NCBI GenBank assembly: GCA_016218715.1
Contig: JACRDG010000089.1
Location: forward strand, 1 to 64,000
Origin: Desulfomonile tiedjei
GTDB taxonomy: Bacteria; Desulfobacterota; Desulfomonilia; Desulfomonilales; Desulfomonilaceae
Reading direction: 5' to 3'
Length of the DNA: 64,000 bases
Shown: positions 16,777-20,125 of the stretch, piece after piece
How positions within the stretch are numbered: position 1 is the first letter of the stretch
Layout of the letters: every line of letters begins with the position of its first letter
The notes under the pieces: generated by a model
What the model saw: only the letters and a program-made list of their open reading frames with translations
Database searches by the model: none
Told to the model about the DNA's origin: nothing
Program-made: the position numbers and the translations under genes

Positions 16777-16988
16777 ATAAGAGCTCTTTGGCTTTGATAG
16801 CCTGGTTAGTGAACTAAAGCGCCCCCAACGTGACCACTGGATGCCGCATAGGGAAGCACTTATATCGCAGCCGGAAAGTGCCCTTGTTGTCCGGAATCAC
16901 CTGCATTATTGTATGAGAGACGTGTTGAGCCGCATGCGCCCTCGGCACGGTGAAGACGGTCCCAATTGCCAACTCATCGGGTGACACA

Positions 16989-17561
16989 ATGTCCGAGAAT
17001 AATACTCCTGCTCAAACCTCTGATGCCACCTCTCGGGGAGATGTGGCTCGGGATGAGGCCGAAGCCAAGAAACCCAACCAACTCGTGGTGATTCTCAGCG
17101 TGGCGCTCTGCCTTGCCATCGGCGCTGCGTTCCTCTACTGGGCCTCGACCGGCTCCGAATTCGCACCCACGACCGGAAGCACGCCTGCAACCGATGCGCA
17201 AGGGTTGAAACGGATCACGCTCGGCAACTTCCAAGAAGAGGTCGTTGCCCCTTCGGAGGCCGGACCGGTGGTGATCGAGTTCTATTCCCACCTTTGACCG
17301 ACCTGCAGACGGATGGAGTCCGTCTTGGTAGAGATCGGCAAGGAAATTCCGGGGCAGGTCACGGTAGGGAAGGTGACTCAGGACGAGCGCAAGTTGTTCC
17401 GAAGCTTCGAGGTGACGGCAATCCCCGCGGTCATGGTCATCCGGAACGCGCAGGTGAAGAAATCGTACATCGGGATGGTTCCCAAAGAGGTACTCCTCCA
17501 GGACATCCGCGAGTTCGGCCCGACCGACGCGAAGAAGGCGGAGGAACAGCCCCGCGGATGA
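16989..17561 (+). CDS. Membrane-anchored selenocysteine-containing thioredoxin (TGA read through as Sec)
   Basis: One continuous frame of 190 codons interrupted only by TGA at 17295-17297. Before it: a charged N-terminus, a transmembrane helix (about residues 31-51) and a thioredoxin strand VVIEFYSHL. After it, in the same frame: PTCRRMESVLVEIGKE, then VTVGKV, then the cis-proline loop TAIPAVMVI and a normal C-terminus. Residue 103 (TGA) aligns exactly with the first Cys of the CxxC active site, and Cys106 with the second, giving U-P-T-C. A 7-bp hairpin follows at SECIS distance. The protein should sit in the membrane with the redox domain outside. Conventional gene calling would split it into two pieces at the TGA. 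ATG 16989 is preferred over GTG 16950. Confidence 0.88.
17295..17330 (+). promoter_or_regulatory. Candidate bacterial SECIS element in the thioredoxin mRNA
   Basis: The TGA (17295-17297) is followed by a perfect 7-bp stem AGACGGA/TCCGTCT (17307-17313 and 17319-17325) closing a 5-nt loop TGGAG that contains guanines. An ACC/GGT pairing below it is possible across a small internal loop. The loop begins 16 nt after the TGA, within the spacing usual for SelB-dependent bacterial SECIS elements. Confidence 0.75.
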
Positions 17562-17585
17562 AATGAGGAGGGAGTCCCCAGAGTC

Positions 17586-18098
17586 TCACGACGAAACCGA
17601 GAACGGTCCTGAAAAGTGCTTATATGTGGCTCCAGATTTTGTGTGCGCGAAAATCGTCCCCGCGGCCACCACGTCGGCAAGCTCACAGAGGGAGCCCGTC
17701 CTGCCACTTCGCTGTCCTGCCTTGATTGGCGTCCACAGCGCGTCTCCGGTCTCTTCTTGGCCGCGCAGCCACAAATGTAATCGGCTTTTTGGGGCTTTCC
17801 CTGCCCATTCGTACCCGTTCGCGGTCTGGGCGATGTTTACGTGCTCTCGTCCCGCCATGAATTCAAGAGCATGTCCACAAAGATGTCTGATATTCACAAC
17901 AACTGCGAACAGGTTCTCCAGGAAAGGCGAAGCGTCCCTCGTCAAATGGAGCTGGTTTCCGACACGGATGAGGAAGCCGTCGAAACCATATCCACGCAAG
18001 AGCTGCTGCAAGACGCGATCTTTGCCGAATGCCGTACCGCTGAGATCACCAGGATAGCCGTGAAGATGCCAGGTCGAGAACGGTAACTTCAGGCGCAT
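17586..18098 (-). CDS. Hypothetical protein, 170 residues
   Basis: A frame beginning MRLKLPFSTWHLHGYPGDLSG with an excellent ribosome site, AAAGGAG five bases before ATG 18098. The sequence contains a plausible folded core (FGKDRVLQQLLRGYGFDGF) and a Gly/Ser-rich end. There is no signal peptide, membrane segment or known motif. It converges on the selenothioredoxin gene, with only 24 nt between the stops. An overlapping plus-strand frame (17841-18086) has no comparable start. No family is recognised, and a function cannot be given. Confidence 0.5.
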   Translation of the reverse strand: MRLKLPFSTWHLHGYPGDLSGTAFGKDRVLQQLLRGYGFDGFLIRVGNQLHLTRDASPFLENLFAVVVNIRHLCGHALEFMAGREHVNIAQTANGYEWAGKAPKSRLHLWLRGQEETGDALWTPIKAGQRSGRTGSLCELADVVAAGTIFAHTKSGATYKHFSGPFSVSS

Positions 18099-18376: not shown

Positions 18377-20125
18377 TCACTTCATCTTAGATGGGTCTGT
18401 GACTCGCCCCATGAACAAGATGCAGCCTGAAGGCTTGTGGTAGATGATGAACATGAACGGGTGATCCGCTCGAAAGACTTTGGGCTTTGCGTCCATGCCC
18501 ATGGTGTAGGCTGTAGCCGTTGCGGCCGCAGCCTCTGTCCCCTCTTCCGTCACATCGATGCACGCTTCGTGGATGACCGCCCCCATGAATAGCCCCGGTT
18601 CAGGGACTCCCGGTGTTTTCTTGTGCAACATCCCGCCGAAATCCGCTCCAGACGCGAAGGCACCTTTCATGCCCATAGCCTTCAGCGTTGAGAGCAAGTC
18701 AAGGCGAGACCTCATGGCAAACCGGGGAAGGCTGACCTCAATACCGAACTCCCATGGTGACAGAGCGCTAACAAGCCCATTTAGCTTGGCCGCTGTGAGG
18801 GATTTCTCTACTGTCGTTAATCCGTCAGTTTTCCGAGGGAGCAAAACCACCATTGCCAGCTCATCGCTCTCGTAGGGGATCTCCAAGACTTGAAGCTCCG
18901 GTTCCTCGAAGTAACGGTAATGGTGAGCCAGATCCCGCATCATCGGAACTTTAATTCGGGAAGCATCCAGGAGAGCAAAATCCTCTAAGAGAGTCTGTTC
19001 TCTCTTGAACGGGACTTCCCACATGGAGTTGAAATAGATTGCGTTCAAGACTGCTAGTACCCACCGTTGGTTTCGAACCTGCTGGGAATCGACAATATTG
19101 GTGATCTTTCCGTTCGTGACCGAGCCCACCCATTCATTCATATCACGCGCCGCTTCCTCCGCGGCATTCAGCAGATCGGCGTCCCGAACAACAGCACCGT
19201 AGTGGTTGACGACAATTTCTTCGAACTCCTTCCCGACTTCATATCCCTCAAATCTGTGCAGCCAGAGGCCATTTCCTATTTGAAGTTCGCCGCCCCTGGA
19301 TTGCGCCGAATGGGTCAGTCCACCAGTCAGATTGCCAAGATTACGCTCCAACGCACTTTGGGTGCCATCAATTCGCATGACTTGGGCAATCTCAAGCCGG
19401 GTCTTGCCTCTGGCTCCCGCATAGGCAATGGCGAGAGGGCAGAAGACGCTCAACGGTGAAAAGACCAGGTTATTCTCTTTTCGTGCCACCCTGCTGTAGA
19501 TGTCCACTCCAAACATATTGATTGATGTCCGAGCCAACGCTTTGAGGTTGTTGAGCTCATCGGTGGTTAGGTCTCGCCCAAAGCGTTGCGGGTCCTGCCT
19601 TTCTCGATAGGCGGTCAGCAGTGGGATGATGTGAATCATGGGCATAGGCCCCCGCCGGGCCAACTGCAGGGGGGTCACACCGTCACGGTCTCTTGCGTTC
19701 ACGTTCGCTCCTGCGGCTATTAGAATCTGCACTTTCTGTGCGTCCTCTCTTCCTGGTGCGGCCACAGCCCAGCCCAAGGGGGTCGCGCCGCGGTTGGTCG
19801 TGTCATCAACCTTGGCTCCTGCATCCAGAAGAACCCTCACCGTTTCTCCGGTTGCCCATCGGGCAGCATAGTGTAGCGGAGTGGCGCCTTCGGAGTCCTT
19901 TGCATTCACATCCGCTCCCGCATCAAGAAGCGTCTTCACTGTTTCGGCATTTCGGTGCAGGTCGGCGCCATCGGCAACAAGACGCTTCAGTGTCGACAAG
20001 TCGCCTTTGCGGGCTGCGGTCTCCAGTTGTCGGTCGATCTCGGCCATGGCAATGGTTCGCAATATAAGAACGACTGCTATTGCCACGATTGCGATTATTC
20101 GCCCGCGCCCCACCCTCTTCAACAT
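18377..20125 (-). CDS. Exported serpin with N-terminal ankyrin repeats
   Basis: 582 residues from ATG 20125 with GAGGAGAG just upstream. A signal peptide (about residues 8-28, ending AMA) is followed by about four ankyrin repeats (about 30-170; GADVNAKDSEGATPLHYAA is typical) and then a full serpin domain (about 205-582). The reactive-loop hinge EEGTEAAAAT (527-536) has the small residues needed for loop insertion, so an inhibitory serpin is predicted. The scissile bond falls near Met542-Gly543. The NAIYFNSMWEVPF and ADHPFMFII serpin signatures are present. Serpins trap serine or cysteine proteases by suicide inhibition. The ankyrin-serpin architecture is unusual, and the natural target is unknown. 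Confidence 0.93.
   Translation of the reverse strand: MLKRVGRGRIIAIVAIAVVLILRTIAMAEIDRQLETAARKGDLSTLKRLVADGADLHRNAETVKTLLDAGADVNAKDSEGATPLHYAARWATGETVRVLLDAGAKVDDTTNRGATPLGWAVAAPGREDAQKVQILIAAGANVNARDRDGVTPLQLARRGPMPMIHIIPLLTAYRERQDPQRFGRDLTTDELNNLKALARTSINMFGVDIYSRVARKENNLVFSPLSVFCPLAIAYAGARGKTRLEIAQVMRIDGTQSALERNLGNLTGGLTHSAQSRGGELQIGNGLWLHRFEGYEVGKEFEEIVVNHYGAVVRDADLLNAAEEAARDMNEWVGSVTNGKITNIVDSQQVRNQRWVLAVLNAIYFNSMWEVPFKREQTLLEDFALLDASRIKVPMMRDLAHHYRYFEEPELQVLEIPYESDELAMVVLLPRKTDGLTTVEKSLTAAKLNGLVSALSPWEFGIEVSLPRFAMRSRLDLLSTLKAMGMKGAFASGADFGGMLHKKTPGVPEPGLFMGAVIHEACIDVTEEGTEAAAATATAYTMGMDAKPKVFRADHPFMFIIYHKPSGCILFMGRVTDPSKMK

Follow-up and report, generated by a model that had tools for sequence, protein, structure and literature searches.

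Thioredoxins that carry selenocysteine (Sec) in a UxxC motif (PF00085) are a listed selenoprotein family (PMC13188914, PMC9312934, PMC1088965), and they have been described in Geobacter, Anaeromyxobacter (two), Carboxydothermus and Treponema denticola (PMC1794560). Our literature search found no paper linking selenoproteins with Desulfomonile. In the window, i.e., the whole stretch of 64,000 nucleotides analysed here, we found a gene that is best explained as a further selenoprotein of this kind (Table 1). We put the probability at about 0.93 that SelB and a downstream hairpin drive Sec insertion at UGA103, and that the product is an anchored protein of 190 residues with a U-P-T-C thioredoxin domain outside the membrane, probably supplied with electrons by a DsbD/CcdA-type route. 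The reading as an anchored Sec thioredoxin, already made in the original prediction, is directly supported by the frame, the homology, the Sec machinery genes in the genome, and the TGA codon and hairpin that five other genes share; the actual insertion of Sec at codon 103 is what these comparisons point to.

Table 1. Coordinates of the putative selenoprotein gene and its predicted features in the window
Feature	Position	Strand	Details
Putative membrane-anchored selenocysteine thioredoxin gene	16989..17561	+	190 residues, stop TGA 17559-17561
Predicted single transmembrane helix, residues 32-50	17082..17138	+	Hydropathy and K/R counts; N-terminus predicted inside
Thioredoxin domain PF00085, residues 76-174	17214..17510	+	Pfam, AlphaFold, Foldseek
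U-P-T-C redox motif	17295..17306	+	TGA 17295-17297 as putative Sec103; resolving Cys 106
Putative bacterial SECIS hairpin	17308..17324	+	7-bp stem 17308-17314/17318-17324, apical loop region UGGAG

The gene comprises 191 codons, the last of which is TGA, and a possible ribosome site (GGTGA, 16980-16984) lies four bases 5' of the ATG. The only internal TGA of the frame is codon 103, at the start of the CxxC position (U103-P-T-C106), and the IPA loop with P146 is intact, as is the C-terminal part. These results agree with the original prediction, which had described the TGA as the sole interruption and the frame, cis-proline loop and C-terminus as running on normally. It had also expected gene callers to split the gene falsely, and a plain ORF caller indeed returned two pieces, 16950-17297 (115 aa) and 17313-17561 (82 aa). 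The Pfam thioredoxin match scores 62.6 bits (cut-off 23.5, E 3.7e-17) and spans the TGA. The AlphaFold model of the protein showed a thioredoxin fold behind one helix (residues 31-54), with a block of pLDDT 95-97 at residues 71-170; the best Foldseek matches of this model were thioredoxins (TMt mostly 0.79-0.92, maximum 0.92), as were the closest solved structures by sequence to the read-through protein. U103, C106 and the cis-proline P146 of IPA are invariant columns of the homologue alignment; in the column of the TGA, 14 aligned homologues have Cys and five others TGA. Identity as a classical TrxA was ruled out, as the protein scored 57.3 bits on the TrxA equivalog TIGR01068, under the cut-off of 96.8, and its motif is L-UPTC instead of W-CGPC.

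The original prediction depended on selA, selB, selC and selD, and the source genome was found to encode selA (510.7 bits), selB (384.1 bits), tRNA-Sec (71.3 bits, anticodon TCA by ARAGORN) and selD (370.1 bits). Within the GTDB family, selA was also found in 17/17 further genomes. The selD gene (L061, G000:C85:75991-76908) is itself a selenoprotein gene, with an in-frame TGA in the motif LSKTAGU and a hairpin of -21.8 kcal/mol, which is independent evidence that the genome decodes UGA as Sec.

The hydrophobic segment at about residues 32-50 has a mean hydropathy of 2.66, with three K/R on its N side and none on its C side, and is preceded by an N-terminus of only 31 residues; the membrane helix claimed earlier was thus borne out at the level of prediction. 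One helix and the positive-inside rule fit an N-in/C-out protein, whose thioredoxin domain would lie outside the cytoplasmic membrane, on the periplasmic side. The original prediction had called this an uncommon setting for a UxxC thioredoxin; the exported placement is indeed predicted, but the claim of rarity carries less weight than it seems to. Proteins of the DsbA-like, DsbG-like and thiol:disulfide interchange types are usually exported. UxxC selenoproteins of all three types are listed in reviews (PMC13188914, PMC9312934), so a UxxC centre beyond the cytoplasm has precedent. In the mechanism proposed here, SelB with Sec-tRNA(Sec) would bind the hairpin 10 bases downstream of the UGA, and the ribosome would insert selenocysteine at UGA103 instead of stopping, giving the protein of 190 residues. 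The helix would hold this protein in the cytoplasmic membrane, leaving the N-terminus on the inner side and the thioredoxin domain in the periplasm. Sec103 would be the attacking nucleophile on substrate disulfides or other oxidised groups, Cys106 would resolve the mixed selenenyl-sulfide, and electrons would probably arrive via a DsbD/CcdA-type membrane conduit, one of the four DsbD_TM proteins encoded in the genome.

Homologues were collected by a protein search of 60 related genomes, after which the loci were read individually. A scan of the genome contigs with the single protein gave no relative, but an alignment-based scan did find relatives. Five further UxxC thioredoxins have a TGA at the same codon, namely L057 of the source genome (contig C78) and L033, L036, L053 and L058 from four more genomes in the GTDB family of the source (apparently Desulfomonilaceae), so that the six TGA genes come from five separate assemblies. 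They form one clade in the tree (support 99/95) beside a Cys group, and the closest homologues outside this clade have Cys at the position of codon 103. Because the six TGA genes group together beside the Cys group, we infer one Cys-to-Sec change followed by duplication. TGA or Cys is kept at codon 103 with intact downstream sequence, and a stop followed by decayed sequence, which the original prediction had named as the sign against it, was found in none of the homologues. In an alignment search of 198 genomes of the phylum no TGA was found outside the GTDB family among the matches listed; the anchored UxxC clade was seen only in one family among the phylum genomes sampled. The canonical FWAxUGPC DNA pattern occurred in 0/395 phylum genomes, and the YS-type UxxC motif pattern gave seven matches in these 395 genomes. 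Two of them, G000:C78 and G006:C16, are real and belong to the same GTDB family; the other five were rejected as chance.

The hairpin consists of seven pairs round the loop GGA (-20.6 kcal/mol, z -3.3 against shuffles), starts 10 bases 3' of the UGA and places the UGGAG loop 16 bases from it, which confirms the perfect 7-bp stem, G-containing loop and SECIS distance originally described. The published bSECIS model asks for G at the first two loop positions, a distance of 16-37 nt from the UGA, a stem of 4-16 bp and an MFE of -7.5 or lower (PMC13188914); UGGAG fits its N1-G-G-N-N2, the spacing is 16 nt and the MFE is well under -7.5. An Rfam search of 17200-17700 gave no match. In a control scan of both strands of the window, 28 of the 1996 TGA triplets (~1.4%) had a SECIS-pattern stem of at least eight pairs, the score of the hairpin itself when A17307-U17325 is counted, so the hairpin by itself is weak evidence and becomes good evidence only because it is kept in the sister genes. 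The six TGA genes align without gaps from the TGA onward with identical hairpin spacing, all seven stem pairs are formed in 6/6 genes, and the apical loop is UGGCA in the sister genes versus UGGAG in the window gene, with the N1-N2 pairing retained. Stem changes among the six genes are one compensatory G-C to A-U change and two pairs altered on one side; covariation is modest, since only one pair is doubly changed and its score was reached by 80/500 shuffles. Codon choice is a better test of the RNA element than covariation. Where two of the six genes share the amino acid, the codon is identical in 64/80 cases in codons +3 to +9 versus 265/691 elsewhere, and wherever the residue is shared Arg CGG (+5, 15/15), Ala GCA (+7, 10/10) and Ser TCC (+8, 15/15) are invariant. 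A SECIS-type hairpin is not formed in the same stretch of the Cys homologues. The strong evidence is comparative, and the position of the TGA in the frame and its conservation, rather than the hairpin alone, would decide in favour of Sec.

The window gene is solitary, its branch in the tree is long (1.29), and a search of the 17 related genomes gave no short-form orthologue. The long branch and the missing short-form orthologue mean that it could be under relaxed constraint, and all three observations would suit a decaying paralogue of a long UxxC or a CxxC thioredoxin in which a nonsense mutation has made the UGA a plain stop. Against this, there is no second interruption across 190 codons, five other genes have the same-codon TGA and the same hairpin, the Sec machinery is complete and includes a Sec-type selD, and the hairpin codons are near-frozen, the window gene having the same codon as the other five in 19/24 comparisons inside the hairpin and 66/168 outside, which makes decay very unlikely. 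The window locus itself comes from a single draft genome, as an error of sequencing or assembly turning TGC or TGT into TGA would require; but the same TGA is present in all six genes and their separate assemblies, and the TGA genes carry a hairpin absent from the Cys homologues, so that the chance of such an error is negligible.

UGA read-through exists in bacteria, and the codon might be decoded as another amino acid (e.g., Trp) via general recoding or leaky read-through. We consider this extremely unlikely, as TGA terminates the window gene itself and 4/5 of the long homologues, the aligned residue elsewhere is the catalytic Cys, whose known functional substitute is Sec, and the genome has a dedicated tRNA-Sec and selB. 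Insertion of Sec at codon 103 remains the preferred reading.

The neighbours of the window gene encode a DUF3999 protein, FHA and PP2C proteins and an ankyrin-serpin fusion; no redox partner gene adjoining it was found, and the neighbourhoods of two long paralogues that were inspected have no partner in common. The fusion gene (18377-20125, minus strand) joins a bacterial serpin (Serpin E 1.6e-97) to N-terminal ankyrin repeats (Ank_2 E 5.5e-26), an unusual combination.

L057 (L057:2897-4012, minus strand) is a second, longer Sec thioredoxin of the source genome, with U at residue 297 of 372. In it and the other four long genes, a UxxC thioredoxin predicted to lie outside follows an N-terminal HTH-like domain, a zinc-ribbon-like region and a single helix, an arrangement resembling that of a transmembrane redox sensor. 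The N-terminal part of L057 (L057:3653-4012, minus strand) matched 68 times in the source genome, in most cases over its first ~60 residues, and appears to be an abundant HTH-like domain; a Pfam search with full-length L057 gave no match over this part, and the CxxC...CxxC region of the long genes gave weak zinc-ribbon matches.

The annotation is corrected here for the window gene, which the ORF caller had split, and for at least five sister genes. The Sec and Cys paralogues of similar layout in the same genomes are a natural set useful for studying what selenium gains an exported thioredoxin. Within the GTDB family, the membrane-anchored CxxC thioredoxins (L056 at G000:C67 in the source genome, and L024-L055) are alike in layout, with a short N-terminus, one helix and a thioredoxin domain, are about 28-35% identical and form the sister group in the tree; they differ in having Cys for Sec and no SECIS-type hairpin. 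The long UxxC thioredoxins have the same-codon TGA and hairpin and belong to one clade with the window gene, but they are 343-372 residues long and carry the HTH-like domain and the zinc-ribbon-like CxxC...CxxC before the helix, both of which the window gene lacks. Among other thioredoxin-like selenoproteins, TsoB (NF045694) matched the window protein weakly (17.2 bits versus a cut-off of 805), and the HUIPC-motif family NF047660 did not match it. It is possible, but rather doubtful, that the family-restricted anchored Sec thioredoxins are a transmembrane selenium-based redox sensor or relay, 5/6 known members joining the outside UxxC thioredoxin via one helix to the cytoplasmic HTH-like domain and zinc ribbon and the window gene being a reduced form that lacks the inside domain. 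What looks new from the sequences is the membrane-anchored, family-restricted UxxC clade whose other members have the cytoplasmic HTH-like domain and zinc ribbon. The published UxxC thioredoxins are alike in the thioredoxin domain and in Sec for the first Cys of CxxC; against these listed members, the clade of the source genome's GTDB family appears to be distinguished by a predicted N-terminal anchor, to which 5/6 genes are predicted to add the cytoplasmic HTH-like and zinc-ribbon parts.
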